Origin: Phytohabitans houttuyneae
GTDB taxonomy: Bacteria; Actinomycetota; Actinomycetes; Mycobacteriales; Micromonosporaceae
Direction of reading: 5' to 3'
Assembly (NCBI RefSeq): GCF_011764425.1
Contig: NZ_BLPF01000003.1
Coordinates: 868,001 to 932,000, forward strand
DNA: 64,000 nt
Positions 22,734 to 41,483 of the stretch are shown in pieces (the first letter of the stretch is position 1; the number at the start of each line of letters is the position of its first letter). The notes under the pieces were generated by a model. That model did not search any database. It was not told where the DNA came from and was given only the letters and a program-made list of their open reading frames with translations. Made by a program: the position numbers and the translations under genes.

Positions 22734-23513
22734 ATGGCCAACACGTCCCGCGGTCCACGGCCCGTCGCCGACGGCCTGGAGATCGCCAGTGGGGACATCC
22801 AGGTGGTCTCGCGCGTCGTCCAGTTGCTGCGGCTACTGGCGTCCAACGGGACCATCGACCTGGTGTCGGCCGCGGAGGAGTTGGGCGTGGGTAAGTCCAC
22901 CGCCCACCGGTACCTGGCGTCAATGGAAAACCACAGCCTGCTGCAGCGGCGGGACCGAAACCGGTACGAGTTCGGCGTGCTGCTGGCCGAACTGGGGACC
23001 ATGGCGCTGTCCCGGCTCGGGGTCACCGACCTGGCCGGGCCGGTGATGGAAGAGATCAGCGTCCGGATGCGCCAGACGGTCGTGCTCAGCGTGTGGAACG
23101 GCCAGTCTCCGGTCGTGGCGCGGGTGCACGAGGACAGCAGCCGGACGGCGCACGTGTCGATCAAGGTCGGGAGTCGGCTCGGCCCCAGCACGGCCCAGGC
23201 GGTCGTCTTCTGGGCCTTCCGGGGCGAGTCGCTGTACCGGTTCGGCGCGGGCGCGGCGGACGCGACAGAAGAAGAGTTGGCGGAGGTTCGCCGGACCGGG
23301 ATCTCGTTCCGGGCGAGCCGTACCGAGGGTGTCAGCGCGGTGGCCACGCCGGTCCGGGATCCGGCCGGCCGGGTCGTCGCCACGCTGGCCATTGTGGGCA
23401 TCGCACAGTTCGTGCCCGAGGGGAGCGACAGCCCGATGGCGCGTGCGCTGCTCGCGGGCGCGGAAACGATCAGCCGGCGGTTGAGCAATCCGCTCGAAGG
23501 CGCGGCGGACTGA
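22734..23513 (+). CDS. IclR-family transcriptional regulator
   Basis: The 259-residue protein has an N-terminal winged helix (about 18-75: VVSRVVQLLRLLASNGTIDL, VGKSTAHRYLASMENHSLLQ). An IclR effector domain follows (VVLSVWNGQSPVVARVHEDS, TGISFRASRTEGVSAVATPV, AAIVGIAQF-like core). ATG 22734 follows GAGGAAGG. IclR proteins commonly control catabolic operons for aromatic or organic acids and sense a pathway metabolite. It precedes the ABC importer and hydrolase genes on the same strand, so it is the likely first regulator of this island, working beside the GntR protein at 35.1-35.8 kb. Confidence 0.88.
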   Translation: MANTSRGPRPVADGLEIASGDIQVVSRVVQLLRLLASNGTIDLVSAAEELGVGKSTAHRYLASMENHSLLQRRDRNRYEFGVLLAELGTMALSRLGVTDLAGPVMEEISVRMRQTVVLSVWNGQSPVVARVHEDSSRTAHVSIKVGSRLGPSTAQAVVFWAFRGESLYRFGAGAADATEEELAEVRRTGISFRASRTEGVSAVATPVRDPAGRVVATLAIVGIAQFVPEGSDSPMARALLAGAETISRRLSNPLEGAAD

Positions 23514-23625
23514 CACCGCGGCCGGCGCCGGCAATCAATACGCACTGACCGGGAAGTCGCCGGCCCAGAGGGTTATCCGTGAGCGGGAACGCGCGGCGGT
23601 TCCCGATCGAGAAAAGGCGAAATAA

Positions 23626-24681
23626 ATGAGGACGTTTCGTTTCGTCACAGTGGTTGCGGTGAGTGCTCTATTGGTGACCGCCTGTGGTGCGGGTGGTGAC
23701 AGCGGCGACAGCGGCACGGGCGAGCAGAAGCTCACCTGGGCGAGCACCGGAGGCCAGTTCCAGGAGGACGAGAAGAAGGCCCTGCAGGAACCGTTCACCG
23801 CCCAGACCGGCACCCAGTTCACAAACGTCACGCCCGCCGAGATCGCCCAGGTCCGGACCATGGTCAAGGCGGGCAAGACGATCTGGGACCTGGCCAACAT
23901 GAGCTGGATCTACGCCGGCGCCTACTGCGGCGAGCTGTTCGAAAAGCTCGACGACCCGGGCCTGGACCGCAGCAAGTTTCCGCCGGGCACGACAGGTGAC
24001 TGCTTCGTGCCGACGTACCGCTACGCCAACATCTTCAGCTACAACGCCGACCTGTTCCCCGGCGAGAAGCCGACGAAGATCGAAGACTTCTTCGACGTCA
24101 AACGCTTCCCCGGCAAGCGGATCGTCTACGACTACCCGAAGGCCGGACTGCTCGAAGCCGCGCTGGTCGCCGACGGGGTACCGCCGGAGAAGGTGTACCC
24201 GATCGACCTCGAACGGGCGCTCAAGAAGATCGACACGATCAAGAGCTCGATGGTCTTCGCACCCAGTTACGGCGCCATCCAGCAACAGCTCGTGGACCGC
24301 CAGGCCAGCATGGTGCTCACCGTGACGGCGCGGTCGATCGTCTCGGCGCAGACCGGTGCCAACCTCGTGCCGGTCTGGGACTTCAACACCACCGACATCG
24401 GCGCCCTGGTGATCCCCAAGGGCACCCCGAACAAGCAGCTCGCCCAGGAGATGCTCGTCTTCGTCACCGAACCGGCACAGGCCACCGCGTACGCGAAGCT
24501 GACCGGCACGGCGCCCGCCCGCAGTGAGGTCGACGTCACGTCGATCGGCTACACCGAGCAGCAGAAGGCGTTCAACGCGTTCCTGCCCGACCGCGGCCGG
24601 CTCGTCGAGCAGGACAAGCAGTGGTGGATCGACAACACCGACGCGGTCGTCAAGCGCTGGACCGCCTGGAAGGTCGGCTGA
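23626..24681 (+). CDS. ABC transporter substrate-binding lipoprotein (polyamine/organic-solute type)
   Basis: The 351-residue lipoprotein has a signal peptide ending in the lipobox LVTAC (Cys about 20) and a Gly/Ser/Asp spacer. An extracellular solute-binding fold of the PotD/AfuA class follows (LTWASTGGQFQEDEKKAL, GKTIWDLANMSWIYAGAYC, YRYANIFSYNADLFPG, PSYGAIQQQLVDRQASM). It should capture the island's growth substrate outside the cell. The polyamine-class fold binds many organic cations and acids, so the ligand cannot be named. It is followed at five bases by the permease gene. Confidence 0.87.
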   Translation: MRTFRFVTVVAVSALLVTACGAGGDSGDSGTGEQKLTWASTGGQFQEDEKKALQEPFTAQTGTQFTNVTPAEIAQVRTMVKAGKTIWDLANMSWIYAGAYCGELFEKLDDPGLDRSKFPPGTTGDCFVPTYRYANIFSYNADLFPGEKPTKIEDFFDVKRFPGKRIVYDYPKAGLLEAALVADGVPPEKVYPIDLERALKKIDTIKSSMVFAPSYGAIQQQLVDRQASMVLTVTARSIVSAQTGANLVPVWDFNTTDIGALVIPKGTPNKQLAQEMLVFVTEPAQATAYAKLTGTAPARSEVDVTSIGYTEQQKAFNAFLPDRGRLVEQDKQWWIDNTDAVVKRWTAWKVG

Positions 24682-24686
24682 CGCGG

Positions 24687-26396
24687 ATGGCTGTCGACAC
24701 AGCCACGGCCGGGGCGCCCTCCACGGGGCGCCTCGCGCCGGCCCGCGCCGGCCGGGGGCGGGCCAGCGGTTGGCTGCTCCTGCTGCCGGCACTGGTCGCA
24801 CTGACCGTCTTCTTCGTACTGCCCCTGCTCAGCGTCGTCGTGGACAGCGTCACCGAGCCGCAGACGGGCCTGGGCAACTACGCCTCGCTGTTCACCGACG
24901 GGTACACGCTGCGGGTGCTGGGCCGCACGCTGCTGGTCGCGCTGGTCGTCTCGCTCGTCGGCGTGCTGCTGGCCTACCCGTACGCGTACGCCATGACGCT
25001 TGTCGGTCCGACGATGCGCGCGGTGCTGGTGACGATCGTGCTCGTTCCATTTTGGACAAGCATGCTGGCGCGCAACTTCGCCTGGATGATCCTGATGCAG
25101 GACGAGGGCGTGATCCAGCGGATGCTCCGGCCGTTCGGGTTCGGCGACGTCACGCTGCTCGGCTCCACCCTGGCCGTCGGAATCTCGATGACCCAGGTGC
25201 TCCTGCCGTTTCTGGTGCTGCCCATGTACAGCGCGATGGACCAGATCGACCGGCGGCTGCTGGCCGCCGCGCAGAGCCTCGGCGCACCGCGCGCACGCGC
25301 CTTCCGCCGGGTCTACCTGCCGCTGTCCATGCCGGGCGTCATCGCCGGCGTGTCCCTTGTCTTCGTGCTGGCACTGGGCTTCTACGTCACGCCCGCCCTG
25401 CTCGGCTCGACCCGCAACGCGATGATCGCGCAGGTCATCAACGTGCGCGCCAAGGAGCTGCTCGACTTCGGCGGCGCCGGCGCGATGGGCGTGTTCCTGC
25501 TGGCTGTCACGCTCGCCGTGCTCGGCCTGAGCCGCCGCCTGGCCGGACAGCGCCTTGCCGCCGTCGCCCCCGGCTACCAGCCGGCCCGGTCGCACGGCAA
25601 GGAGGGCCAGCCGGCGCAGGTACGGCCCTGGCTCAAGGTGCACACGGTGCTCGTGGCGATCCTGCTTGTCGCGCCGACGCTCGTGGTCATCCCGATGAGC
25701 TTCTCCTCAGGCAGCACCTTCCAGTTTCCGCCGGACGGCTGGTCGCTGCGCTGGTACGAGCGGCTGTTCACCTCACCGCAGTGGACCGCCGCCATCTTCA
25801 ACTCCATCCAGGCGGGGCTTTTCACCGCGGTCCTCGCGACCGTCCTCGGCACCACCGCCGCGCTCGGCGTACAGCGGCTGGCCCCCCGCTGGCGCGGCGC
25901 GGTCACCGGCTTCCTGCTCGCGCCGATGATCGTCCCGCACATCCTGGTCGGCCTGGTGGTCTTCGCCGCGTTCCTGCAGGCGGGCCTCAACGGCACCCTC
26001 CTGGGCATCATCCTGGCCCACACCGCGATGGCCGTGCCGTTCGTGGTGATCGCGGTGACCGCCCGGCTGCAGGGGATGGACGCGCGCCTGCCCGGCGTCG
26101 CGGCGAGCCTCGGCGCAAGCCCGCTTTCCGCGTTCCGCCGGGTCACCTTCCCGCTGCTGCTGCCCGGCATCCTGTCCGGCGCGGTGCTGGCGTTCGTGAC
26201 GTCGCTGGACGAGGTCGTGATCGCCCTGTTCCTGCAGGCGCCCGGAGCGATCACCCTCCCGGTCCAGATGTTCAACAGCGTCACCATCCAGATCGATCCG
26301 ACGATCTCCGCCGCGTCGAGCCTGATCGTCGTCCTCGTGAGCGTCCCCATCCTGCTGGCCCAGGTCATCAGCGCGCGGCGCGGAAAAGGTAGGTAG
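24687..26396 (+). CDS. ABC transporter permease, two PotB/PotC-like permeases fused in one chain
   Basis: The 569-residue protein contains two complete binding-protein-dependent permease domains in tandem. The first half (about 25-285) has the EAA loop in AAAQSLGAPRARAFRRVYLP, and the second half (about 315-569) has GVAASLGASPLSAFRRVTFP. About six transmembrane helices occur in each half, joined by a charged cytosolic linker (AGQRLAAVAPGYQPARSHGK). Polyamine-type systems normally encode these as two genes, so the fusion gives a single-chain channel for the importer. It lies between the binding protein and the ATPase. No frameshift is needed for the fusion. Confidence 0.88.
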   Translation: MAVDTATAGAPSTGRLAPARAGRGRASGWLLLLPALVALTVFFVLPLLSVVVDSVTEPQTGLGNYASLFTDGYTLRVLGRTLLVALVVSLVGVLLAYPYAYAMTLVGPTMRAVLVTIVLVPFWTSMLARNFAWMILMQDEGVIQRMLRPFGFGDVTLLGSTLAVGISMTQVLLPFLVLPMYSAMDQIDRRLLAAAQSLGAPRARAFRRVYLPLSMPGVIAGVSLVFVLALGFYVTPALLGSTRNAMIAQVINVRAKELLDFGGAGAMGVFLLAVTLAVLGLSRRLAGQRLAAVAPGYQPARSHGKEGQPAQVRPWLKVHTVLVAILLVAPTLVVIPMSFSSGSTFQFPPDGWSLRWYERLFTSPQWTAAIFNSIQAGLFTAVLATVLGTTAALGVQRLAPRWRGAVTGFLLAPMIVPHILVGLVVFAAFLQAGLNGTLLGIILAHTAMAVPFVVIAVTARLQGMDARLPGVAASLGASPLSAFRRVTFPLLLPGILSGAVLAFVTSLDEVVIALFLQAPGAITLPVQMFNSVTIQIDPTISAASSLIVVLVSVPILLAQVISARRGKGR

Positions 26397-26398: not shown

Positions 26399-27519
26399 GT
26401 GAGAACCCGGATGGAGCAGCGAGCGGTGGCGCCGGCGCCCGCGGTGGCGGCCAGCAGCGGGGGCCGCATCGAGCTGGTGGACCTGTGCAAACGGTACGGG
26501 GCCAACGAGCCGCCGGCCGTCGACCACGTCAACATCGACATCGAACCGGGGGAGTTCATCACCCTGCTGGGCCCAGCGGCTCGGGAAAGACCACGACGCT
26601 CAACATGATCGTCGGGTTCACCACACCGACCTCGGGTGGCATCCGCCTCAACGGCCGGGACATCTCCGGGCTCCCGCCGCACAAGCGGAACTTCGGCATG
26701 GTGTTCCAGAACTACGCGCTCTTCCCGCACCTGTCCGTCGCCGACAACGTGGCCTTTCCGCTGCGCGAGCGCAGGACGCCGCGGGAGGAGATCACCAGGC
26801 GGGTCGGCGAGGCACTGGAGCTCGTCGACCTCGCCGGCATGGACAAGCGCCGCCCGCACGAGCTGTCCGGCGGGCAGCAGCAACGCGTGGCGCTGGCCCG
26901 CGCCGTGGTCTTCTCGCCGAGTGTGCTGCTGCTCGACGAACCGCTCAGCGCGCTGGACCGCAAGCTGCGGCAGTCGCTGCAGCGCGAGGTCAAGCGCCTG
27001 CACCGCGAGCTGAAGCTCACCTTCGTGTTCGTCACGCACGACCAGGACGAGGCGATGACGCTGTCGGACCGCATCGCCATCTTCTACCGCGGGCGGATCG
27101 ACTCCATCGGCACCCCCGCCGACCTCTACCACCGGCCGACGACCCAGTTCGCGGCCCGGTTCCTGGGGGAGTCGAACGTCTTCGCCGGCCGCTACGTCCC
27201 CGGTGGCGCCTACGAGTGGCTCGATCGCACGTGGACGGTCCGCGAGCCGGACGGAGGCGGCGAGCGGGTCCTGATCGTGCGGCCCGAGCGCATCCGCCTG
27301 GCCGTGGTGGGCGAGCCGGTGCCGTCCGGATCCAACGCCGCCGAGGCGACGGTCACCGACGTCTCCTTCTACGGCACGTTCAACCGGGTCGAGCTGACCT
27401 ACGGCGACGGCTCCGTCGGCTGCGCCGCACTACCCGTCGGCATCCCGGCGGCAGTCCACCCGGGCGACCGGGTCGTCGCCCACTGGCGGCCCGAAGACCA
27501 GGTCCTGGTGACCCCGTGA
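26399..27519 (+). pseudogene. ABC transporter ATP-binding protein (PotA type), single-base frameshift
   Basis: The N-terminal frame reads RIELVDLCKRYGANEPPAVD then EPGEFITLLGP. The other frame continues PSGSGKTTTLNMIVGF (Walker A), VFQNYALFPHLSVADNVAFP, LSGGQQQRVALARAVVFSPS (signature), VLLLDEPLSALDRKLRQSLQ (Walker B) and VTHDQDEAM. A C-terminal TOBE domain (ESNVFAGRYVPGG, VRPERIRL) follows. The shift is inside GGGCCC at 26569-26574; one added base restores 373 residues, a normal PotA length. The rest is fully conserved, so a base-calling error is more likely than loss. It belongs to the importer with the two genes upstream. Confidence 0.88.
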
Positions 27520-27538: not shown

Positions 27539-28480
27539 ATGATCGCAGAGCTCTCGCTGTTGGACGCCGAGCTGGACGCGGACCGCCGGCTCCCCGACGA
27601 GGAGGCGGACCGCCTCATGGTCGGCGCGGTCGACCTGCACCAGCACCCCGGACCGAGCCCGTTTCCGCGGCGGATGAGCATCCTTGACGCCGCGCGCGAC
27701 GCGGCCGGGGCGGGCTTCCGCGCGATCGTGGCCAAGTCGCACCACCACAGCATGGTCACCGACATCCTGGCGCTGCGCTCGGCGGGCCTGGCCGACCTGC
27801 CGATCGAGGTCTTCGGCGGGATCGCCCTGAACTGGACGGTCGGCGGGCTCAACCCGTACGCCGTCGAGCTGGCCCTGCGGATGGGTGGCCGCATGGTGTG
27901 GTTTCCCACGCTCTCCTCCGCCGCCCACGTCCGGCACCACGAGGACCACGACACCGGCTTTCCCACCTCGGAGGTGGAGCTGCGCCCCCAGCCGATCCTG
28001 TCGATCCTCGACGACAACGGCCGGGTCCTGCCGGAGGTCCGGGACATCCTGTCGGTGATCGCGGCCGAGGAGGCGGTGCTGACCTGCGGCCACCTCGGCG
28101 TCACCGAGTCGCAGCGGCTCATCGACGCCGCGCTGGAGGCCGGCGTCCAGCGCATTGTCGTCAACCACCCCTGCTTCGTCGTCGGCGCCTCGATCGAACA
28201 GGCGGCCGCGTGGGCGCGCCAGGGCGTCTACATCGAACACTGCGCGGTCATGTACTTCGGCCGCCCGGAGCGCCGGCGCGACTTCGGTGAGCTGCTGGCG
28301 TTCATCGAGGCGGTCGGCGCCGGGCAGACCGTCATCTCCTCGGACTCGGGGCAGAAGGCCAACCCGCTGCCGGTCACCCTCTACCGCAGGGCCATCCGGG
28401 GGCTGCTGGACGCGGGCGTCCCCGAGCAGCAGACGCGGCAGCTGGTCGGTACCAACGCGGCACAGCTGCTGCTGCCATGA
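27539..28480 (+). CDS. DUF6282 family metal-dependent hydrolase, first copy
   Basis: The 313-residue predicted TIM-barrel enzyme of the amidohydrolase-like class has metal-type motifs in order: VDLHQHPGPS (His34, His36), AKSHHH (68-70), LTCGHLGVTES (His about 185), VVNHPCF (His210) and SSDSGQ near 270. The family is annotated only as DUF6282. The His pattern argues for a hydrolase acting on a C-N or C-O bond, or a decarboxylase. It begins 20 bases after the ATPase gene. A paralogue with the same role lies at 40.5-41.5 kb. The stop overlaps the next ATG by four bases, showing tight coupling with the MBL enzyme. Confidence 0.82.
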   Translation: MIAELSLLDAELDADRRLPDEEADRLMVGAVDLHQHPGPSPFPRRMSILDAARDAAGAGFRAIVAKSHHHSMVTDILALRSAGLADLPIEVFGGIALNWTVGGLNPYAVELALRMGGRMVWFPTLSSAAHVRHHEDHDTGFPTSEVELRPQPILSILDDNGRVLPEVRDILSVIAAEEAVLTCGHLGVTESQRLIDAALEAGVQRIVVNHPCFVVGASIEQAAAWARQGVYIEHCAVMYFGRPERRRDFGELLAFIEAVGAGQTVISSDSGQKANPLPVTLYRRAIRGLLDAGVPEQQTRQLVGTNAAQLLLP

Positions 28481-29247
28481 GCGAGGTCCTCGCGGTGCGG
28501 TACGGCACCCGCACCACCCGCAGGAGCGAGGTCTTCCTGCACTTCGACACGTACGGCGAGCCGGACACCGGCATCGTCATGGACTACTACTTCTGGGTCG
28601 TACGGCACGGCGGGCACACCACCGTCGTCGACTGCGGCTTCAACGAGGCGAGCGGCGCGCGCCGCGGGCGCACCATGCTCTGCCCGCCGGCGCGGGCCCT
28701 GGACCGGCTCGGCGTCGACCCGGCCGCGGTCACCACGGTCGTGCTGACCCACGGCCACTACGACCACATCGGCAACCTGGGGGCCTTTCCCGCCGCCACG
28801 TTCGTGATGTCGCGGCGCGAGTACGACTTCTGGGCCGGCCCGATGGGGCGCAAGCCGCTGTTCGCCGGCTCCGCCGAACCCGAGGACGTCGCCGCCCTGC
28901 GCGTGGCGCACGCCGCCGGCCGGCTCACCCTCGTGGACGCGCGCACCACCCTGCCCGGCGGCGTCGAGCTCGTCGAGGTCGGCGGCCACACGCCCGGCCA
29001 GCTCATCGTGCTGGTCGGGGACGTCGTGCTCGCCTCCGACGCCCTGCACTACTACGAGGAGCTCGACCGGGACCGCCCGTTCGCCCACGTCGCCGACCTG
29101 CCGGCGATGTACGGGGCGTTCCAGCTGCTGCGCGACCTGGCCGGCACGCGCCGCCTTGTCGCGGGGCACGACCCGGACGTGATGCGGCGCTTTCCCGCGA
29201 CCGGCGACGACGGGCTCGCCGTGCGGATCAGCGTGGACGGGAGGTAG
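28477..29247 (+). CDS. MBL-fold hydrolase, N-acyl homoserine lactonase-like, first copy
   Basis: The 256-residue metallo-beta-lactamase-fold protein has HGHYDHIGN (His92, His94, Asp96, His97), a third His in EVGGHTPGQ and Asp in LASDALHYY, the dinuclear zinc site of AHL-lactonase-like enzymes. MDYYFWVVRHGG near the N-terminus is also typical. Despite the family name, many members hydrolyse other lactones. In this island it may open a lactone made by the Baeyer-Villiger-type oxygenase. The ATGA overlap joins it to the DUF6282 gene. The second MBL enzyme of the island is at 39.1-40.0 kb. Confidence 0.85.
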   Translation: MSEVLAVRYGTRTTRRSEVFLHFDTYGEPDTGIVMDYYFWVVRHGGHTTVVDCGFNEASGARRGRTMLCPPARALDRLGVDPAAVTTVVLTHGHYDHIGNLGAFPAATFVMSRREYDFWAGPMGRKPLFAGSAEPEDVAALRVAHAAGRLTLVDARTTLPGGVELVEVGGHTPGQLIVLVGDVVLASDALHYYEELDRDRPFAHVADLPAMYGAFQLLRDLAGTRRLVAGHDPDVMRRFPATGDDGLAVRISVDGR

Positions 29248-29250: not shown

Positions 29251-30075
29251 ATGCGCGGGCTCGCGGGCAAGGTCGCGGTGGTCACCGGTGCGGCCGGCGG
29301 CATCGGGGCGGCCACCGTGCGGCGGCTGGTCGAGGCGGGAGCGCAGGTCGTCGCGGTGGACACCGCCGTCGCGCAGCCGCCGCCGGCCGGCGCGGCCGCC
29401 TGGGTGCGCGCCGACGTGTCCACCGAGGACGGTGTCGAGGCGTACATGAGCGCCGCCGTCGAGCGGTTCGGCCGGGTCGACCTGCATCACCTCAACGCCG
29501 GCATCTCCGGCTCGTTCGCCACGCTGCCAGAGCTGACCGCCGCCGAGTTCGACCGGGTGATGGCGGTGAACGTGCGCGGCGTCTTCCTCGGCGTCCGGGC
29601 CGCGTTCCGCCAGTACGAAGCGCAGGACGGCACCGGCGGCATCGTCATCACCGGGTCGATCGGGAGCCTGCGCGGCAGCGCGGACCTGCTGGCCTACCAG
29701 ACCTCCAAGCACGCGGTGCTCGGCATCCTGCACGGCGCCGCGATGTACGGCGGGCCGCTGGGCGTGCGGGTGAACGCGGTCGCGCCCGGCATCGTGCCCA
29801 CCGACCTGTTCGCCGCGACGCCGGACGCGGTCGGCGGCAAGGACGACATGGCGCGCCGGGCCAGCAGCACGCCACTGCGGCGGGCCGGCACCGGCGAGGA
29901 CGTCGCCGCCGTGGTCGCGTTCCTGCTCAGCGACGAGGCCGCGTACATGACCGGCGAGGTCGTCTCCGTCGACGGCGGCGCCAGCATCGTCAGCACCGTG
30001 CGGCCGTCCGGCGGCGCGGGCGCCTGGGACTTCGCCGGTTATGACCGCGCGCTGTACGGAAGGGACCTGCGATGA
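29251..30075 (+). CDS. Short-chain dehydrogenase/reductase in catabolic operon
   Basis: The 274-residue classical SDR has TGAAGGIGAATV for NAD(P), VAVDTA with Asp suggesting NAD, LNAGISGS, Ser in VITGSIGSLRG and Tyr/Lys in LAYQTSKHAV. VNAVAPGIVPTDLF and VVSVDGGASIV follow. The C-terminus carries an added tail of about 25 residues (SGGAGAWDFAGYDRALYG). It is expected to oxidise a hydroxy intermediate of the pathway. It begins four bases after the MBL gene and overlaps the next gene by four bases (ATGA). Confidence 0.87.
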   Translation: MRGLAGKVAVVTGAAGGIGAATVRRLVEAGAQVVAVDTAVAQPPPAGAAAWVRADVSTEDGVEAYMSAAVERFGRVDLHHLNAGISGSFATLPELTAAEFDRVMAVNVRGVFLGVRAAFRQYEAQDGTGGIVITGSIGSLRGSADLLAYQTSKHAVLGILHGAAMYGGPLGVRVNAVAPGIVPTDLFAATPDAVGGKDDMARRASSTPLRRAGTGEDVAAVVAFLLSDEAAYMTGEVVSVDGGASIVSTVRPSGGAGAWDFAGYDRALYGRDLR

Positions 30076-34655: not shown

Positions 34656-35050
34656 GTGGTGAGGCTTTCCTGCCGCAGCTGCTCGATGACCTGCTGGGCG
34701 AGGCGGAACGCTTCGAGCGCGGCCGGTGCGCCGCAGTACGCCGCGGTCTGCAGCAGGACCTCCTGGATGTCCTGCTGGGTGCAGCCGTTGCGCAGCGCGC
34801 CGCGTACGTGCACCGAGAACTCGTGCGGCCGGTTCAGCGCGGTGAGCATTGCGAGGTTGAGCAGGCTGCGGGTGCGCCGGTCGAGCCCGGGTCGGGACCA
34901 GACGTCGCCCCAGCAGGTCGCCGTCACGTACTCCTGCACCACCCGGGTGAAGTCGGTGGCCTGCGCCAGCGAGCGTTCGACGTGCGCGTCGCCGAGCACC
35001 TCCCGCCGGATGTCGAGGCCGCGCGCGAACCGGCTTTCGTCAACACTCAT
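34652..35050 (-). CDS. Carboxymuconolactone decarboxylase (PcaC-like) protein
   Basis: The 132-residue protein shows FTRVVQEYVTATCWGDVWSR, then LDRRTRSLLNLAMLTALNRP, EFSVHVRGALRNGCTQQDIQ and EVLLQTAAYCGAPAALEAF, the full PcaC-like CMD domain. The PcaC enzyme decarboxylates 4-carboxymuconolactone in the protocatechuate branch, but the rest of that pathway is not present here, so a different substrate is likely. ATG 35050 follows GGGAG. The 18-base operator-like motif at 35076-35093 sits just upstream, so the GntR protein probably controls this gene and the coupled TPP enzyme. Confidence 0.88.
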   Translation of the reverse strand: MSVDESRFARGLDIRREVLGDAHVERSLAQATDFTRVVQEYVTATCWGDVWSRPGLDRRTRSLLNLAMLTALNRPHEFSVHVRGALRNGCTQQDIQEVLLQTAAYCGAPAALEAFRLAQQVIEQLRQESLTT

Positions 35051-35075
35051 GGACCGCTCCCTGCCGCTGGCAAAT

Positions 35076-35093
35076 GTGGGATCATCATACAAT
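35076..35093. promoter_or_regulatory. Putative GntR operator A
   Basis: GTGGGATCATCATACAAT lies 26-43 bases upstream of the CMD gene start. It aligns without gaps to the motifs at 35920 and 41484, with the shared 3' part TACAAT and a common GAT-rich core. This copy is the least symmetric of the three. Confidence 0.6.
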
Positions 35094-35135: not shown

Positions 35136-35810
35136 CTAGGCGTCCTGCTCGGCGAGGGCGACAAGGCCGGCGCGACCGGCCTCCTCGACGTGCCGGGCGC
35201 AGGCCGCGGCGGCGGCGTCGGCGTCACCGGCGAGGACGGCGTCGACGATCGCGCGCAGCTCCTTGGTGCTGTGCTCGACCCGGCCGGGGACCGACAGCGA
35301 CAGCGACCGCAGCACGGTGACCCGGGCGTGCAGGCCGCCGGCGACCGACCGCAGCGCGTCGTTGCCACCGCCCTCGAACAGCACGTCGTAGAAGGCGTCC
35401 TTCGCGGCCAGCACCGGCGCGCCCTTAGCGGTCAACCGCTCGATCTTCTCCAGCGCGCGGACGAGCGCCTTGCGCTGGGCGGCGCCGGCGTGCTCGACGA
35501 ACAGGCGCCCGGCCAGCGCCTCCAGGACCGCGCGCACCTGGTAGAGCTGGCGTGCCTCCTCGGCGCTGACGCTGGTGACGACCATGCCCTTGTTGGGGAT
35601 CGCGGTGACCAGCCCTTCGGCCGAGAGCTCGCGCAGCGCCTCGCGGACGCTGGTGCGGGACGCGCCGGTGAGCTCGACGAGCTCGCGCTCGATCAGGCGC
35701 TGCCCGGGTGCGAGCCGCCGGTCGAGGATCGCCTGCCGCAGGTTGGCCACCACCTGCGAGCGGATCAGAGCCGGGTTGCGCTCAACCCGCAGCGGGTTGG
35801 CTCCGGTCAC
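35136..35810 (-). CDS. GntR-family (FadR/FCD) transcriptional regulator
   Basis: The 224-residue protein has an N-terminal winged helix (about 15-80: VVANLRQAILDRRLAPGQRL, VELTGASRTSVREALRELSA, GLVTAIPNKGMVVTSV) and an all-helical FCD domain. The FCD domain shows YQVRAVLEALAGRLFVEHAG, FYDVLFEGGGN, HARVTVLRSLSL and HSTKELRAIVDAVLAGDADA, where Asp/His residues usually bind a metal and the effector. This subgroup typically represses pathways for organic acids. It stands between the divergent CMD/TPP and aldolase operons, both of which carry the candidate operator. Confidence 0.88.
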   Translation of the reverse strand: MTGANPLRVERNPALIRSQVVANLRQAILDRRLAPGQRLIERELVELTGASRTSVREALRELSAEGLVTAIPNKGMVVTSVSAEEARQLYQVRAVLEALAGRLFVEHAGAAQRKALVRALEKIERLTAKGAPVLAAKDAFYDVLFEGGGNDALRSVAGGLHARVTVLRSLSLSVPGRVEHSTKELRAIVDAVLAGDADAAAAACARHVEEAGRAGLVALAEQDA

Positions 35811-35919
35811 CGCCGTCCTCCTCGTCCGCGCTCGGTTGAGCTGTCGTGCCTGACATCGTACTCAGACGAAGTGTGCTGGTGGGGAGGCGTATCGGCGCGT
35901 CCCACCGCTGTTCAGGATC

Positions 35920-35937
35920 GTATGACGATGATACAAT
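35920..35937. promoter_or_regulatory. Putative GntR operator B
   Basis: GTATGACGATGATACAAT lies 33-50 bases upstream of the aldolase ATG. Its flanked core T(C/T)GTAT, seven bases, ATACAA is nearly a perfect inverted repeat, typical of FadR-type GntR sites. It shares TACAAT with sites A and C. Confidence 0.65.
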
Positions 35938-35969: not shown

Positions 35970-37667
35970 ATGACTGCGGTGGAAAACCGGCAGGGGTTCG
36001 CCCGGCGACTGGCGTCGACCACGCGGTGCCTGGTGGGCACCTGGGTCAAGATCCCGGCCGTGGAGCCGGTGGAGATCCTGGCCGACGCCGGCTTCGACTT
36101 CATCGTCATCGACCAGGAGCACGCGCCACTGACGCTCGAGTTCGCATATCAGGCCACGGTCGTGGCGCAGGGCGCCGGCATGTCCGTCCTCGTCCGCGTC
36201 CCCGACCGCAGCGGCGGCTACCTGCAGCGGCTGCTCGACACCGGCGTCGACGGCATCCTCGTGCCGAGGGTGACCTCCGTCGCGGAGGCGAGCGCGGCGG
36301 TGCGGCAGATGCTCTTCTCGCCCGGCGGAGACCGCGGCATCGGCATCACGTCCCGGGCCGGGCGGTGGGGCGGCCTCGCCCGCGAGGAGTACCTGCGCTT
36401 CGGCGACCAGGAGGTCATGCGCGCCGTGCAGCTGGAGGAGCGGGCGGCGATCGAGGCGGTGGACGACATCCTCGCCGTCCCCGGGCTCAACGGGGTCTTC
36501 CTCGGCATGGGTGACCTGCAGCTCTCATCCGGCCTGCCGCAGTCCGACCCGTCGATCCAGAAGCTCGTCGACAAGCTGCTGTCCGCCGCGGCGGCGCGCG
36601 GCGTGCCCGCCGGCACCGCGGTGCAGACCGCCGAGCAGGCCGCGGCGGCGGCCGACCGGGGATACCGGTACGTGATGGTCAGCAACGACACCAGCGTGCT
36701 GAGGAGCGCCGCGGCGGCCGTCGTCGCCGACGTTCGCAGCCGACTCTCCGAGGGGACAACGATGGCGTATGACGCCAGCGACCTGCGCTCGACCCTGCCC
36801 GCGGCCACCACGGCGGTGCCGGAGCGGTTCTCCGGGTCCGAGCACGTGCGGTTCCGCGACCTGGCGCCGGTGGAAAAGACCGAAGGCGCCGCGACCTGGT
36901 ACGCGCGCGGGCAGAACTTCGTCGTCGGCTACTCCGAAGTGGACGGTACGGTCTCGTTCGCCCGCACCGGGCAGCCCGACGAGTACGTGGTGCTGCTGGC
37001 CGACGACGCGCTGACCGCCCAGGTGCGCACACCCGGCGAGCAGGTCGCGGCGGCCGGCCGCACCATGCTCGTCGTGCCGCCGGGAGACAGCACCGTGACC
37101 GTCACCGGGCAGGGGCGGGTGCTGCGCCTGCTGACCACCCGCTCGGCCGACGTCGCCTCGCTGGCCGCCAACGCCGGCTCCTACACCGAGCCGCACGAGA
37201 ACATCCCGCCGTTCCAGCCGTGGCCCGAGCCGGTGGGCGGGTACCGGGTGCGCGCCTACGACCTCACCGTCACGCCGCTGTCCAACCCGCCGTTCCGGCT
37301 GTACCGGTGCACCACCTTCATGGTCAACTTCATCGACCCGAAGCAGGGCCCGCGCGACCCGGCCAAGCTCTCCCCGCACAAGCACGACGACTTCGAGCAG
37401 TGTTCCATCGTCCTGGCCGGGCAGTACGTGCACCACATCCGCTGGCCATGGACGACCAACCGGGCCAACTGGCGCGAGGACGAGCACGAGGTGACCGAGG
37501 CGCCGTCCGTCACGGTGATCCCGCCGCCGTCCCTGCACACCAGCGAGGCGATCGGCGCCGGCGAAAACCACCTCATCGACGTCTTCTGCCCGCCGCGGTT
37601 CGACTTCTCGGCGATGGAGGGCTGGGTGTTCAACGCCGCCGACTACCCGGCACCGCCCGGCCGATGA
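35970..37667 (+). CDS. HpcH/HpaI aldolase joined in frame to a cupin-like protein
   Basis: As read, a single frame of 565 residues is present. Residues 1-262 are a class II pyruvate aldolase of the HpcH/HpaI family: VGTWVKIPAVEPVEILADAG, FIVIDQEHAPLTLE (metal/pyruvate region), VLVRVPDRSGGYLQRLLDTG, GVDGILVPRVTSVAEA and GVFLGMGDLQLSSGLP. It would split a 4-hydroxy-2-oxo acid to pyruvate and an aldehyde. Residues 265-565 are the cupin-like protein described separately. An extra G in the run 36752-36755 would end the aldolase at 36772, overlapping an ATG with its own ribosome site. The fusion may therefore be a sequence error like the others in this window. Operator B lies upstream. Confidence 0.8.
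   Translation: MTAVENRQGFARRLASTTRCLVGTWVKIPAVEPVEILADAGFDFIVIDQEHAPLTLEFAYQATVVAQGAGMSVLVRVPDRSGGYLQRLLDTGVDGILVPRVTSVAEASAAVRQMLFSPGGDRGIGITSRAGRWGGLAREEYLRFGDQEVMRAVQLEERAAIEAVDDILAVPGLNGVFLGMGDLQLSSGLPQSDPSIQKLVDKLLSAAAARGVPAGTAVQTAEQAAAAADRGYRYVMVSNDTSVLRSAAAAVVADVRSRLSEGTTMAYDASDLRSTLPAATTAVPERFSGSEHVRFRDLAPVEKTEGAATWYARGQNFVVGYSEVDGTVSFARTGQPDEYVVLLADDALTAQVRTPGEQVAAAGRTMLVVPPGDSTVTVTGQGRVLRLLTTRSADVASLAANAGSYTEPHENIPPFQPWPEPVGGYRVRAYDLTVTPLSNPPFRLYRCTTFMVNFIDPKQGPRDPAKLSPHKHDDFEQCSIVLAGQYVHHIRWPWTTNRANWREDEHEVTEAPSVTVIPPPSLHTSEAIGAGENHLIDVFCPPRFDFSAMEGWVFNAADYPAPPGR
36762..37667 (+). other. Cupin-like second half of the aldolase frame, possibly a separate gene
   Basis: From ATG 36762, preceded by GAGGGG, 301 residues form a protein with two beta-barrel-like parts. 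One is around SGSEHVRFRDLAPVEKTEGA. The other carries metal-type histidines: LSPHKHDDFEQCSIVLAGQY and PPPSLHTSEAIGAG. Comparable stand-alone proteins exist in catabolic operons, but I cannot name the reaction. Whether it is a domain or its own protein depends on one base (see the finding). Its end overlaps the monooxygenase start by four bases. Confidence 0.65.
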
Positions 37668-39127
37668 GCCGCCACCACACGCCGCTGCGGGTCGCCGTCA
37701 TCGGCGCCGGGCTCGGCGGCATCGCCGCCGCGGTCAAGCTGCGCCGCCGGACCTCGGCCACCGTCGTCATCTTCGAGCAGTCCGCGGGCGTCGGCGGCAC
37801 CTGGTACGACAACCGGTACCCCGGCTGCGAGGTCGACGTGCACTCGCACGCCTACTCCTTCTCCTTCCTCAAGTACGACTGGCCGCGCACCCACGCCACC
37901 CAGCCGGAGCTGCTCGCGTACGCCGAGCACGTGGTCGACCGCTTCGGCCTGCGGCCGCACCTGCGCCTGAACACCCGGGTCACCGACCTGGTGTGGGAGG
38001 AGTCGACAAGCCGGTACACGCTGTCCACCGAGCACGGCGACAGCGAGGAGTTCGACGTCGTCATCTCCGCGCTCGGGCTGCTCAACGTGCCGCGCTATCC
38101 CGAGTGGCCCGGACTGGACACCTTCGCCGGCCCGTGCTTCCACACCTCGCGCTGGGAGGACCACGACCTCACCGGAAAGTCGGTGGCGGTGGTCGGCACC
38201 GGCTCGACCGCGGTACAGATCGTCCCGGCGATCGCGTCGACGGCCGGCCGCGTCCACGTCTTCCAGCGCGAGCCCGGCTGGATCGAGCCCAAGCACGAGC
38301 GCGAGTTCAGCGCCCGCGAGCGGTGGTGGTACCGGAACGTGCCCCTGGCCCAGCGCGCCAGCCGGGCCTGGATCTTCCACGAGGGCAACCGCCGGTTCAA
38401 GGGCTACGACGCCGGCTCCCGCCGCCAGCGGCGCATGCGCGAGGTCTGCCACCGCTTCATCGCGCGGGCCATCGACGACCCGGCGACCAGGGCGGCGGTG
38501 ACACCCGACTACCCCTGGGGCTGCAAGCGGCCGGTCATCTCCTCCACGTTCTACCCGGCGCTCAACCGCGACAACGTCGAGCTCGTTCCGCACGCGGTGA
38601 GCCGGGTGACGCCCACCGGCGTCGTCGACGCGACCGGCACCATCCGCGACGTCGACGTGCTGATCCTCAGCACCGGCTTCCAGCCGACGAGGTTTCTGGC
38701 CAGCATCGACGTCAAAGGCCGCGACGGGCGCGGCATCCACGACGCCTGGCGCGAGCGGGCCAGCGCGTTCATGGGCATCACCGTGCCCGGCTTCCCGAAC
38801 TTCTTCATCCTCTACGGACCGAACACCAACGGCGGCGTGTCGATCATCGCCCAACTCGAACGCCAGGCCGAGGTCGTCGTCGGCGCCGTGCGCCGCCTGG
38901 CCCGCCGCCGGCGGCGCAGCATCGACACCTCACCGGCCGCGGCACGGCGCTTCGTCACCTGGATCGACCGGCGGCTGGCCACCCGCGCGTCAGCGATGGA
39001 ATCCGGCTGCCACAACTACTACCACGACCCGGCCGGGCACAACGTGACCCAATGGCCCGGCGGTCACCTCGCGTACGCCCTCGCCACCCGCCTGCTCGCC
39101 CGCTGGGGCCTGCGCACGCGCCGCTAG
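37664..39127 (+). CDS. Flavin-containing monooxygenase, Baeyer-Villiger type
   Basis: The 487-residue FAD/NADPH enzyme has a first Rossmann motif GAGLGG at 14-19, then GGTWYDNRYPGCEVDVHSHA. The Baeyer-Villiger-like fingerprint FAGPCFHTSRW is at 154-164 (FxGxxxHxxxW, followed by Glu rather than Pro/Asp). A second Rossmann motif GTGSTAVQI begins at 178, and DVLILSTGFQPTRFL and FFILYGPNTNGG follow. Such enzymes insert oxygen next to a ketone to make an ester or lactone. This fits the two lactonase-like MBL enzymes in the same island. The ATGA overlap with the cupin-like frame fixes the start. Confidence 0.9.
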   Translation: MSRHHTPLRVAVIGAGLGGIAAAVKLRRRTSATVVIFEQSAGVGGTWYDNRYPGCEVDVHSHAYSFSFLKYDWPRTHATQPELLAYAEHVVDRFGLRPHLRLNTRVTDLVWEESTSRYTLSTEHGDSEEFDVVISALGLLNVPRYPEWPGLDTFAGPCFHTSRWEDHDLTGKSVAVVGTGSTAVQIVPAIASTAGRVHVFQREPGWIEPKHEREFSARERWWYRNVPLAQRASRAWIFHEGNRRFKGYDAGSRRQRRMREVCHRFIARAIDDPATRAAVTPDYPWGCKRPVISSTFYPALNRDNVELVPHAVSRVTPTGVVDATGTIRDVDVLILSTGFQPTRFLASIDVKGRDGRGIHDAWRERASAFMGITVPGFPNFFILYGPNTNGGVSIIAQLERQAEVVVGAVRRLARRRRRSIDTSPAAARRFVTWIDRRLATRASAMESGCHNYYHDPAGHNVTQWPGGHLAYALATRLLARWGLRTRR

Positions 39128-39966
39128 ACGAGGCTGGCATGGCCGGCGGCGAGCGAGACCTCCGCGACGTGCATACCACCGTCCACTGTGGCCGTGGGGA
39201 AGCGGTCCCACACCGCCGCGTCGTGGAAGGGCAGGACGCGCCGGCTGTCCCGCCCCACGCTGTCCAGCATGGCGTCGGCGACGTCGAGCCAGGTGGTGGC
39301 GCTGCCGGTGCTCATCGCGATCGGCACCAGGACGCCGTCGCCGCGCAGGCCCTCGATGTTCTCGTAGCTGTACACGTTGTCGCCGGCGAAGACCCACGGC
39401 CCGTCCGCGTCGTTGGTGACCGCGACAAGCTGCGAGCCGGCGGTGTGGGTGTCGTGGGCCGGCCGCAGCTCGATGCCCGGCGCGACCTCGGCGGCGCCGT
39501 CGACGAGCGTCGCCGCGCCGCTGGCCAGGCGCTGCGGCAGGTCGGCCTGGCAGAACCGGGTCAGGAACTCGAACCGCGCCGGCCGGGCGGCCGCGGCCAG
39601 GTACGAGTCGATCTCCCGTCGCTGGATGTGGACGTGCGCGGCGGGAAACTCCTCGACGCAGCCGGCGTGGTCGAAGTGGTTGTGCGTGAGCAGGATCGTG
39701 TCGACCTGCTCGGCCGCGACGCCGACGTCGGCGAGCACGTCGACCGGCCGCCGCCACGCGGTGCGCCCGTACTTGGCGGTGAGCCGGTCGTACACCGCCT
39801 GGTCGACGAAGCCGGTGTCCACCAGCACGCAGCGGTCGGCCGAGCGGACCAGCCCGAAGCAGTACGGCATCGGCCGGTACCCCTCGTTGGGCTGCCCGGC
39901 GAACAGGTTGCTGGCCGGAAAGCGTTCGACGAAGCCGTACTCGAGGATCCAGATCGAGTAGTTCAC
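39124..39966 (-). CDS. MBL-fold hydrolase, N-acyl homoserine lactonase-like, second copy
   Basis: The 280-residue metallo-beta-lactamase-fold protein has THNHFDHAGC (His95, His97, Asp99, His100), a His in PAHDTHTAGSQL and Asp in FAGDNVYSYEN, a full dinuclear zinc site. YSIWILEYGFVERFPASNLF is typical of the lactonase-like branch. It is only distantly similar to the MBL enzyme at 28.5 kb, so the two probably hydrolyse different esters or lactones. GTG 39966 overlaps the stop of the upstream CMD gene (GTGA). It ends a three-gene minus operon headed by operator C and converges on the monooxygenase. Confidence 0.87.
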   Translation of the reverse strand: MNYSIWILEYGFVERFPASNLFAGQPNEGYRPMPYCFGLVRSADRCVLVDTGFVDQAVYDRLTAKYGRTAWRRPVDVLADVGVAAEQVDTILLTHNHFDHAGCVEEFPAAHVHIQRREIDSYLAAAARPARFEFLTRFCQADLPQRLASGAATLVDGAAEVAPGIELRPAHDTHTAGSQLVAVTNDADGPWVFAGDNVYSYENIEGLRGDGVLVPIAMSTGSATTWLDVADAMLDSVGRDSRRVLPFHDAAVWDRFPTATVDGGMHVAEVSLAAGHASLV

Positions 39967-40532
39967 GGCGCGTCCGGTGGCTGGACGTCGAAGACGGCGA
40001 GCTGCATGGCCACCATTGTGTAGTAGCCGACGATCGTGACCAGCTCGAAGAGCCCGGCCTCGCCGAGCACGCCGGCCGCGTCGTGAAACTCGCCGTCCGC
40101 CAGCGTGCCGCGTTCGAGGATCCGCAGCGTGGTCCGGAAGACGCACGCCTCCACATCGGACATCGTGGCCGGCTCGCGCGCGGCGGCCAGTGCCGCCAGG
40201 TCTTCCTCGGTCAGGCCGGCGGCGATCCCGGCGCGCCGGTGCGCGTACAGCTCGAACGGGCTGCGGTGCCGGTGGCCGACGAGCAGGATCGCGATCTCGC
40301 ACGCCCGCGCGGGAAGCTGCGAGCCGAAGCGCACGGCCGCGCCGATCTGCTGCAGCGCCTGCCCGAACGTGGGGCTGAGGATCCACACCGCGGGCGGTCC
40401 CTGCAGCCGCCCGTCGGCGTCGACGAGCAGGAACGGGTTGTCCGGCGTCGCCCGCGGCCCGCTGGCGTACCGGTCGTAGATCGCGCGTTGGGCCTCGCTC
40501 ATGCGCGCGGGGTCGACGCCGTCGACTCTCAT
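39963..40532 (-). CDS. Carboxymuconolactone decarboxylase family protein (third in island)
   Basis: The 189-residue protein has the CMD core VRFGSQLPARACEIAILLVG, HRHRSPFELYAHRRAGIAAG and LTEEDLAAL, and a C-terminal half with LRILERGTLADGEFHDAAGV and FELVTIVGYYTMVAMQLAVF. The catalytic CxxC is replaced (HRHRSPFE), so it is not an AhpD peroxidase. It begins with an ATGA overlap to the DUF6282 gene and ends with a GTGA overlap to the MBL gene, so the three are translationally coupled. The same trio of families occurs in the first half of the island. Confidence 0.85.
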   Translation of the reverse strand: MRVDGVDPARMSEAQRAIYDRYASGPRATPDNPFLLVDADGRLQGPPAVWILSPTFGQALQQIGAAVRFGSQLPARACEIAILLVGHRHRSPFELYAHRRAGIAAGLTEEDLAALAAAREPATMSDVEACVFRTTLRILERGTLADGEFHDAAGVLGEAGLFELVTIVGYYTMVAMQLAVFDVQPPDAP

Positions 40533-41464
40533 GCCGGTACCCCCAGGAAGGCGCGTGGGTTGGTGGCCACCATCGTGGCGATCTGCTCGGCCGTCCAACC
40601 GAGGTAGGCGAGCTGTTCGACGAACATACGCAGGCACTCCGGCTCGGGCGGCACCCAGCGGGAGAAGACGTCCGTGGTGAGGATGGCCCGCTCCGGCCCG
40701 ACCGTGGCCAGCGCCTCGTGCACGTCCCGGACGCTCAGGTGCCCGTCGGGGTGTACCAGCGGCGCGTTGCAGAACTCGACGTACGCGCCCATGTCGACGA
40801 GCTCGCGCAGCCGCGCGGGGTCCTTCGTGTAGTGCAGCGGATGGGTGACCAGCAGCCGCTGCCCGATCCCGGCGCAGTACGCCGCGACCGCGCGGCTCTC
40901 CTCGGCGGACGCGTGACCGGTGGCCAGCGCGAGCCCGAGCCCGTGGCAGGCGTCGACGACCGCGCGCGCCCGGCCGGAGAGGGTGCCGCCGGCCTCGCAC
41001 AGCGCGATGGCGGTCCGGGCGTTGTACTCGCCGAAGGACGGCGAGATCCGCCGCAGCAGCGCCGAGATGTACCCGTCGCGGGCGATGTCGGCGGCGGCAC
41101 CCCAGGTCGGCAGAAACACCACCCGCGCGCCGTGCGCGGCCGCGAGCTCGACGACCGCGGGCTCCAGGCCGCCGACCGGAGGGTTGAGGGTGACGCTGCC
41201 GTACACGGTGAAGCCGGTGCCGGCCATCTCCCGCTCGATGGCACGGGCCCGGTCCATGGTGGCCCACAGGTGGGACTTGAGCACCCACCCGGACATCCCG
41301 TACGCGTGCGCCAGCCGCGCCACGTCGGGGTCCGCGCCGCGGTTGCGCAGCGCCGACGACAGGTCGGGCTGGCCGTGCACGTGTACGTCGATGGCACCGC
41401 GCAGCAGGCGGTCGAAGCCTTCCGGTTGCGCGGCCGGGAGCAGGTCGGGCCTCGGATCGGTCAT
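40529..41464 (-). CDS. DUF6282 family metal-dependent hydrolase, second copy
   Basis: The 311-residue paralogue of the protein at 27.5 kb has IDVHVHGQPD (His28, His30), VLKSHLWATMDRA, YGSVTLNPPVGGLEPAVVEL, LATGHASAEES, VTHPLHYTKDP and ILTTDVFSRWVPPE. The same metal-type positions recur, with HVH in place of HQH and KSHLW in place of KSHHH. ATG 41464 follows a GAGG at five bases; GTG 41470 is an alternative. Operator C lies 21-38 bases upstream. It leads the coupled DUF6282-CMD-MBL operon. Confidence 0.83.
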   Translation of the reverse strand: MTDPRPDLLPAAQPEGFDRLLRGAIDVHVHGQPDLSSALRNRGADPDVARLAHAYGMSGWVLKSHLWATMDRARAIEREMAGTGFTVYGSVTLNPPVGGLEPAVVELAAAHGARVVFLPTWGAAADIARDGYISALLRRISPSFGEYNARTAIALCEAGGTLSGRARAVVDACHGLGLALATGHASAEESRAVAAYCAGIGQRLLVTHPLHYTKDPARLRELVDMGAYVEFCNAPLVHPDGHLSVRDVHEALATVGPERAILTTDVFSRWVPPEPECLRMFVEQLAYLGWTAEQIATMVATNPRAFLGVPA

Positions 41465-41483
41465 CGCCACCTCGTCTCCAGTC

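Follow-up and report, generated by a model that had tools for sequence, protein, structure and literature searches.

The described systems closest to the gene set reported here are catabolic pathways. The protocatechuate 4,5-cleavage/gallate pathway employs the amidohydrolase lactonase LigI, GalB and the CHA aldolase; cyclohexanone-type degradation runs through a Baeyer-Villiger monooxygenase (BVMO), then a lactonase and then hydroxyacid oxidation; and the D-glucarate/galactarate pathway includes the GarL aldolase and the GarR reductase, the known members of the HpaI/GarL group cleaving 4-hydroxy-2-oxo acids to pyruvate and an aldehyde. The lower part of the 4-hydroxyphenylacetate (homoprotocatechuate) meta-cleavage pathway comprises an isomerase, a hydratase, the HpaI aldolase and SSADH, the hydratase acting before the aldolase (PMC12718150). 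Here we analyse an island of 21 genes in a 64-kb window of the Phytohabitans houttuyneae genome (11.34 Mb, 5 contigs); the window is the whole stretch of DNA analysed (G000:C3:868001-932000), and positions are counted along it. Gene content and conservation make the island a real, co-conserved unit and not a chance grouping, and it is very probably devoted to the breakdown of one compound. It is built from known superfamilies around an unrecognised core. The interpretation we prefer, for which we see about equal chances of being right or wrong, is that a single-purpose, locally regulated composite island serves for the uptake of a small charged compound and for its degradation via ring-opened 2-oxo acids.

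Conservation of the island

The island comprises 20 genes from 22695 to 41464, defined by gene calls and Pfam/NCBIfam scans, plus the dehydrogenase gene SDR0 at 21762-22490, and its G+C content resembles that of the surroundings. Conservation was scored at 16 loci of the same bacterial family with a 76-89% identical DUF6282-A, and the x/16 counts give recurrence among them; the per-gene presence limits were chosen after seeing the gene map, and a second locus of one genome (L067 of G647) was excluded. Ten genes, all on the + strand, were found at 16/16 loci: an IclR-family regulator (22695..23513; PF09339/PF01614); the solute-binding lipoprotein (SBP_bac_8; 23626..24681), fused two-domain permease of the polyamine/2-AEP type (24687..26396; every NCBIfam model under its cut-off) and PotA-like ATPase with a TOBE domain (26485..27519; 334.2 bits, cut-off 355.6) of an ABC importer; DUF6282-A, a predicted metallo-hydrolase of the amidohydrolase superfamily (27539..28480); MBL-A, a lactonase-like hydrolase of the metallo-beta-lactamase (MBL) fold (28477..29247; PF00753); the dehydrogenase SDR-A (29251..30075); the beta-hydroxyacid dehydrogenase HIBADH-1 (30072..30965; PF03446/PF14833); cupin-A, resembling a cupin hydroxynitrile lyase (30965..31348; 120.5 bits, cut-off 140); and a tandem CMD protein (32229..32984; PF02627 in two stretches; PDB 2q0t, 3.7e-101).

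The remaining eleven genes recurred at 10-15 of the 16 loci. On the + strand these are the beta-hydroxyacid dehydrogenase HIBADH-2 (31345..32235; 15/16), an HpaI/GarL-type class II aldolase (35970..36761; 14/16), the bicupin CUPB (36762..37667; 14/16) and a homologue of type I BVMOs (37664..39127; FMO-like; 13/16). On the - strand are SDR0 (21762..22490; PF13561, 7.7e-60; 15/16), an acetolactate-synthase-like thiamine pyrophosphate (TPP) enzyme (32977..34655; 15/16), a PcaC-like CMD protein (34652..35050; 13/16), a GntR/FCD regulator (35136..35810; PF00392/PF07729; 14/16), the lactonase-like MBL-B (39124..39966; 12/16), CMD3 with a single CMD domain (39963..40532; PF02627, 1.7e-6; 11/16) and DUF6282-B (40529..41464; PF19799, 3.9e-51; 10/16). 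Most misses coincided with the end of the compared DNA or of a contig (G303, G359, G319, G340, G344, G309), the bicupin of G303 and G359 being present outside the compared stretch; those not explained in this way were SDR0 in G359, HIBADH-2 in G647, PcaC in G618 and the BVMO in G635. At none of the 16 loci did the flanking genes (AI-2E, sigma factor, MFS) recur, and the downstream SnoaL-domain sigma factor and the MFS gene were ruled out as island members on this ground.

An earlier note on this DNA had described one uncharacterised catabolic island and had let that description stand or fall with, among other things, co-occurrence in other genomes; the conservation found in the relatives, together with the shared operator described below, supports it well. 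The 20 genes from IclR to DUF6282-B lie where it placed the island, but its limits miss SDR0. The tight packing that it reported was confirmed from the coordinates, both for the seven genes from DUF6282-A to the tandem CMD (gaps of -4, +3, -4, -1, -4 and -7 bases) and for the second DUF6282-CMD-MBL set, with overlaps of 4 bases at both the DUF6282-B/CMD3 and the CMD3/MBL-B junctions.

The order of the blocks differs between Phytohabitans and the other genera, and within Phytohabitans a large part is inverted in G615, and G614 carries between DUF6282-A and MBL-A an insert of about 20 kb that includes another importer of this type. Because the gene set is kept while its order is shuffled, a joint function is strongly indicated. 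A fixed chromosomal site in the genus was ruled out, the closest homologue of the upstream AI-2E gene lying about 0.9 Mb (G614) and about 2.7 Mb (G618) from the island. At 1e-20, neither DUF6282 nor CUPB was matched in G616 and G617. Between MBL-B and the BVMO, G647 has a gene of glycosyl hydrolase family 1 (L056 912-2177).

A putative operator shared by the transcription units

A 19-bp palindrome, TTGTATGATNATCATACAA, stands before three transcription units of the island, at putative operator sites between GntR and the aldolase (35918..35936, + strand, 33.5 bits), 5' of DUF6282-B (41482..41500, + strand, 33.0 bits) and 5' of PcaC-TPP (35074..35092, - strand, 27.8 bits). These scores come from scanning the window with a matrix built from 41 sites of the relatives, the window excluded; the next-best place scored 10.8, and 25 first-order Markov sequences used as control gave a median best score of 9.0 and a maximum of 19.8. 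In the whole genome, the pattern TYGTAYGAYNATSNTACAA with at most 2 mismatches matched the three island sites and one other, and the reversed pattern gave one match; this consensus was written with the window and the relatives in view, its informative part being its rarity elsewhere. The core of the palindrome, TCGTATGACGA, was present in the GntR-aldolase intergenic region of 14/14 sequences compared (window included). When the core was searched with 3 mismatches in the window alone it was found 6 times against 5.19 expected, no more than chance, and the operator claim is therefore drawn from the relatives' matrix and the whole-genome pattern search, not from the window-alone scan.

In the relatives, a site with at most 5/18 mismatches within 200 bp upstream was found for GntR (14/14), the aldolase (13/14), PcaC (13/13), IclR (14/16), SDR-A (13/15), SDR0 (12/15) and DUF6282-B (3/7), a site shared by divergent neighbours being counted for each gene. 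The three SDR0 misses are the three Phytohabitans relatives, and the best site upstream of DUF6282-B has 6 mismatches in 4/7. No site was found upstream of the operon-internal genes for SBP, DUF6282-A, HIBADH-1, ATPase, permease, tandem CMD and cupin-A (0/16 each), nor upstream of the bicupin (0/14), BVMO (0/13), MBL-B (0/10) and CMD3 (0/10), and sites were few for TPP (1/14), HIBADH-2 (1/14) and MBL-A (3/16). The shared operator sequence serves as a proxy for co-regulation of the island. Since the best-kept site sits in the promoter of GntR itself, the GntR/FCD protein is favoured as the probable reader of the predicted operator, IclR being also a candidate. For experiments, the system offers a single 19-bp site with two candidate regulators, and induction as a way to search for the substrate.

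The DUF6282, bicupin and aldolase core

A DUF6282-A match at E <=1e-20 occurs in 86 of 354 genomes of the family, and in 27 of these identity is at least 40% (clade A, a limit set after seeing the scores, which are 212 bits at 40% identity and 148 bits at 39%); the same 27 genomes have a bicupin match at 1e-20. The neighbourhoods of DUF6282-A relatives were compared in 79 named loci, the best 79 of 250 found by contig scan, with 10-kb flanks and a presence limit of 60 bits. The bicupin was found in 16/21 loci with at least 70% identity, 6/6 with 55-70% and 48/52 with 40-55%, the aldolase in 18/21, 6/6 and 47/52, and both together in 68/79 (16/21, 6/6, 46/52); 13 of the 21 closest loci belong to genomes already among the 16 and are not independent. 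In the five closest loci without a bicupin in the flanks (L097, L100, L102, L105 and L109, from G343, G366, G303, G614 and G359) it lies further out or on another contig. Control loci with a DUF6282 of 33-38% identity showed CUPB in 0/19 and an aldolase-like gene in 1/19 (L199, the island itself, was excluded from the 19). The wider core is consequently formed by DUF6282, the bicupin and the HpaI-type aldolase. It spans soil actinomycetes and marine and soil alphaproteobacteria, DUF6282 and the bicupin being usually accompanied by the same type of aldolase. A literature search covering few subscription journals found DUF6282 named nowhere, and combined searches on the parts, covering titles and the opening lines of abstracts, showed no account of the gene set.

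DUF6282-A is predicted to fold as a (beta/alpha)8 barrel of the amidohydrolase superfamily (pLDDT 94.3; folds are model predictions throughout). The metal motif of this superfamily consists of HxH plus downstream His, His and Asp. Across 27 sequences, DUF6282-B among them, residues D32, H34, H36, K66, H68, H185, H210, E233 and D269 do not vary, the metal motif being judged by H34, H36, K66, H68, H185, H210 and D269 (L172, being partly masked, was left out of alignment A5). DUF6282-A thus agrees with the superfamily in predicted fold and in the sequence of its metal motif, and is a predicted hydrolase. The earlier note had spoken of duplicated enzyme modules; two DUF6282 and two MBL proteins are indeed present, but the wording overstates their kinship. 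DUF6282-A and DUF6282-B are just 27% and MBL-A and MBL-B 32% identical, so both pairs are old, distinct paralogues, and a recent duplication of an enzyme module was ruled out.

CUPB, which is without a Pfam, NCBIfam or PHROG match, is predicted to be a bicupin with two double-stranded beta-helix domains (pLDDT 90.8), and its fold matches are tied between oxalate decarboxylase, YxaG, AerE, BacB and IolB-like proteins. The cupin metal motif, HxH...E/Q...H, is present in the C-terminal half only, where the candidate metal ligands H206, H208, Q213 and H259 do not vary among 34 sequences and E212 hardly does. The aldolase exceeds the cut-off of PF03328 (79.6 against 25 bits) and falls below that of the HpaI equivalog TIGR02311 (136.9 against 368.8 bits); its best solved relative is 2-dehydro-3-deoxy-galactarate aldolase (PDB 1dxe, 2.3e-32).

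Relatives of CUPB with 35-57% identity were found in 27 plasmid records, including Paracoccus, Roseobacteraceae, Neorhizobium and Rhodococcus, and are annotated as hypothetical protein wherever annotated. Of the 16 stretches sampled from these records, 15 carry an aldolase homologue and 9 a DUF6282. Four of the seven without DUF6282 carry an extradiol-type gene near the bicupin-aldolase pair: BphC in Rhodococcus opacus 9, a LigB-family gene in Sphingopyxis granuli, and a VOC protein each in R. opacus G13 and Pseudosulfitobacter SM26-46 (the two sharing 60% identity, and that of SM26-46 being 23% identical to the BphC of R. opacus 9). A related alpha/beta hydrolase is present on 3/4 of these plasmids, and no FAH-fold protein was found on 2/4, the nearest lying about 13 and about 41 kb from CUPB on the other two. 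The plasmid dioxygenase queries matched 0/79 named DUF6282 loci, a weak test with single-sequence queries.

Other genes were observed near the core in particular loci. A dihydroorotate-dehydrogenase-like gene accompanies it in Sciscionella and Paracoccus (L122, L093, L212), with matches in 13/79 named loci, and might indicate a cyclic amide substrate there. In 29/79 named loci there are genes for beta-keto acid cleavage (BKACE) enzymes, which suggests that, in other bacteria, beta-keto acids arise later in the route. Near the core, a Marmoricola metagenome-assembled genome has a gene for an aromatic amino acid lyase (L152 1624-3129), and Mameliella has hut genes. On a Thermus oshimai plasmid (L177) DUF6282 stands with a PIG-L protein, a CHA-type aldolase and catechol 2,3-dioxygenase, and could there be a pyrone hydrolase.

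Module II and the variable enzymes

The wider core together with IclR and the ABC importer is taken here as module I (IclR, importer, DUF6282-A, CUPB and aldolase), and GntR, the PcaC-like CMD, MBL-A, SDR-A, the two HIBADH, cupin-A and the tandem CMD as a putative module II. An 18.7-kb stretch of the Acidiphilium cryptum plasmid pACRY02 holds GntR, PcaC, HIBADH-2, MFS, MBL-A, SDR-A, HIBADH-1, cupin-A and tandem CMD, 42-69% identical to their homologues in the window, with no match to DUF6282, the bicupin, the aldolase or the BVMO. Most of module II is also present in Sodalis praecaptivus (no SDR-A match; GntR 41% identical) and in Paraburkholderia caribensis (no MBL-A match; GntR 43%). Because module II occurs without module I in these three proteobacterial plasmid stretches, the island is a composite of two modules plus the BVMO, the TPP enzyme and the DUF6282-B set.

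The earlier note's readings of single parts as an importer, a BVMO homologue, lactonase-like MBL proteins and DUF6282 metallo-hydrolases were borne out by profile, PDB and structure-model matches. Three points escaped it: DUF6282 and the aldolase have no partner more constant than the bicupin, the MBL-SDR-HIBADH-cupin-CMD group is separable, and the BVMO is variable. MBL-A matches PDB 8x78 best (1.9e-13), and the N-acyl-homoserine lactone (AHL) lactonase 9khq at 5.3e-7; MBL-A and MBL-B reach PF00753 and stay below the lactonase equivalogs (best 59.1 against 360 and 55.3 against 375). The best model for HIBADH-1 is tartronate semialdehyde reductase, below its cut-off (169.9 against 340.75), and the PcaC-like protein narrowly misses the PcaC equivalog TIGR02425 (155.0 bits, cut-off 155.7). 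The BVMO is homologous to cyclohexanone monooxygenase (PDB, 9.5e-77), and its best NCBIfam match is the pentalenolactone PtlE family (235.5, cut-off 1100). The fingerprint of type I BVMOs is FxGxxxHxxxW[PD]; the corresponding region reads FAGPCFHTSRW followed by E, where the fingerprint has P or D. The BVMO lies in the 10-kb flanks of 9/21 named loci at 70% identity or above (several cut off by the flank), 1/6 at 55-70% and 0/52 at 40-55%, and was not found in the G635 island, which rules it out as the defining step of the wider core.

Two oddities were found in the present assembly. The TPP gene is frameshifted near 33330-33342, with its N and M domains in one frame and its C domain in another (PF02776, PF00205 and PF02775 over two frames), and the aldolase and bicupin form a single 565-aa open reading frame (ORF) by in-frame read-through (35970-37667). 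Since the TPP gene is open (549-631 aa) in 13/13 copies from family genomes not cut by the end of the locus, and the aldolase and bicupin are two ORFs, some of them overlapping, in 14/14 family-genome loci holding both, both oddities may be assembly errors or recent changes; for the TPP gene, this may mean an assembly error or a pseudogene.

Proposed pathway and alternative explanations

In the pathway that we propose, in which every reaction and the substrate class are inferred, the importer would take up a charged small compound, DUF6282-A would open its ring hydrolytically (a lactone, enol-lactone or cyclic amide), CUPB, standing in for the usual FAH-fold hydratase, would convert the 2-oxo-enoate so formed by hydration or tautomerisation into a 4-hydroxy-2-oxo acid, and the aldolase would split this acid into pyruvate and an aldehyde. 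Module II with the BVMO, the TPP enzyme and the DUF6282-B/CMD3/MBL-B set would prepare or finish the carbon skeleton by steps that, judging from the enzyme families, are likely to be oxidation of an alcohol to a ketone (SDR), oxygen insertion (BVMO), lactone opening (MBL), beta-hydroxyacid oxidation (HIBADH) and decarboxylation (CMD/TPP). The order given in the earlier note, from oxygen insertion through lactone opening and hydroxyacid oxidation to retro-aldol cleavage, is reasonable as a hypothesis.

The plasmid neighbourhoods suggest the roles within the core. Because the bicupin-aldolase pair joins extradiol-type genes on four plasmids, it would finish ring-opened 2-oxo acids; because a hydratase precedes the aldolase in the known pathway and FAH-fold proteins are absent or distant on the same four plasmids, CUPB is by position the candidate hydratase; and because extradiol-type genes replace DUF6282 beside CUPB-aldolase on plasmids, DUF6282 would by position take the ring-opening place. 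We put forward, tentatively and expecting that it could well prove wrong, that CUPB is a new cupin-fold 2-oxo-enoate hydratase/tautomerase replacing the FAH-fold enzymes and clade A DUF6282 a hydrolytic ring-opener replacing extradiol dioxygenases, the two forming with the HpaI-type aldolase an unrecognised lower pathway common to Actinomycetota and Alphaproteobacteria. If true, this would give a testable role both to DUF6282, which Pfam lists without a function, and to a bicupin that matches no Pfam, NCBIfam or PHROG family, and would add a breakdown route for a possibly aromatic-derived compound.

Several observations weigh against this interpretation. We know of no enzyme activity for DUF6282 or CUPB. 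Five of the 16 sampled plasmid stretches were chosen for DUF6282, so that 9/16 is not an unbiased count, and the chromosomes accompanying these plasmids could supply a hydratase. Leisingera has DUF6282 with an annotated extradiol enzyme about 3 kb off, across a LysR gene; in the stretches from Streptomyces chartreusis, Embleya and Agrobacterium, CUPB is accompanied neither by DUF6282 nor by a recognisable ring-cleavage dioxygenase, and that from Agrobacterium has no HpaI homologue either. The SDR0-IclR promoter of Phytohabitans is without a good operator site, and the TPP gene of the present genome is frameshifted.

Two or more unrelated catabolic pathways might also lie side by side, modules I and II acting on different substrates and being linked by neighbourhood alone. 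The presence of two regulators, the finding of all or most of module II in Acidiphilium, Sodalis and Paraburkholderia stretches that have no module I, and the lack of a tandem CMD or MBL-A match in the flanks of the 52 named loci at 40-55% identity are consistent with this. However, within the clade DUF6282-A is the first gene of the operon that runs on through MBL-A to the tandem CMD, the blocks have been re-ordered yet kept together, and the same operator sequence is found in front of units of either module, as at the divergent SDR-A/IclR-importer promoter of the relatives; separate pathways are accordingly an unlikely explanation, if one to be taken seriously. A pathway for sugar acids or cyclitol lactones, with SDR oxidation, MBL/DUF6282 lactonases, an IolB/KdgF-like bicupin isomerase, a GarL-like aldolase and the HIBADH as tartronate-semialdehyde reductases, would give no role to the BVMO, CMD and TPP parts; no dehydratase or kinase domain was found among the island genes in the Pfam/NCBIfam scans, and bicupin-aldolase pairs adjoin aromatic ring-cleavage genes on plasmids. 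We consider it rather improbable, even with the best solved relative of the aldolase and the best, below cut-off, model of HIBADH-1 both pointing towards sugar acids, the IolB-like 2qjv among the tied fold matches of the bicupin and KdgF among its weak profile matches (E 0.14).

The host is an actinomycete and relatives of the BVMO, such as its best NCBIfam family, tailor natural products, as would be expected of a secondary-metabolism tailoring cluster; the importer, the IclR and GntR/FCD regulators and the aldolase speak against such a cluster, as do the occurrence of module I on alphaproteobacterial plasmids and the finding of no polyketide synthase, non-ribosomal peptide synthetase or terpene synthase domain among the island genes, making it very improbable. 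Enzyme families of these kinds are abundant in large actinomycete genomes, and their proximity might be due to chance, but the conservation (16 loci, 27/354 genomes, controls) and the operator refute this and leave it a negligible probability. The import of one charged compound and its degradation via ring-opened 2-oxo acids remains the explanation that we prefer.

Features outside the island

A SAM-IV riboswitch was found at 18710-18828 (+ strand; 93.7 bits, gathering cut-off 38), directly 5' of the ORF 18844-20106. The sigma factor next to the island (41598-42629) is of the ECF type with a SnoaL-like C-terminal domain, and is one which we take to be ECF41-like; at 1e-60 it has 9 matches in the genome, its own included. 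Further downstream, 44880-45665 encodes an aminoglycoside 3-N-acetyltransferase family protein (PF02522, 2.5e-90) and overlaps an ORF on the opposite strand with a PEP-mutase domain.

Comparison with known systems

The earlier note's conclusion that no known pathway fits agrees with the models, those for protocatechuate, HpaI, meta-cleavage and AHL lactonase each failing in a tested feature, PcaC narrowly. With the protocatechuate branch of the beta-ketoadipate pathway the island shares a PcaC-like CMD and lactonase-like enzymes, but it contains no protocatechuate 3,4-dioxygenase or alpha/beta-hydrolase domain. It resembles cyclohexanone-type degradation in its type I BVMO homologue of cyclohexanone monooxygenase, lactonase-like hydrolases and dehydrogenases, and differs in having no alpha/beta-hydrolase lactonase and in a BVMO that was unseen in the flanks of 69/79 named loci. 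The GarL-like aldolase and GarR-like beta-hydroxyacid dehydrogenases recall the D-glucarate/galactarate pathway, from which the island departs in lacking a dehydratase and a kinase domain.

Compared with the protocatechuate 4,5-cleavage/gallate pathway, the island has no LigAB-type or PIG-L domain, and its aldolase is of the HpaI and not of the CHA type; the predicted amidohydrolase-fold ring-opening step before a pyruvate-forming aldolase is alike, and the DUF6282 of Thermus oshimai stands beside a PIG-L protein and a CHA-type aldolase. Compared with the 4-hydroxyphenylacetate pathway, the island has no extradiol dioxygenase, there is no FAH-fold hydratase or isomerase among the Pfam results for its genes, and the TIGR02311 score of the aldolase is below the cut-off (136.9 against 368.8); it nevertheless shares the HpaI-type aldolase at the end, bicupin-aldolase pairs elsewhere stand with extradiol-type enzymes, and in place of the missing enzymes the island carries a bicupin and DUF6282.

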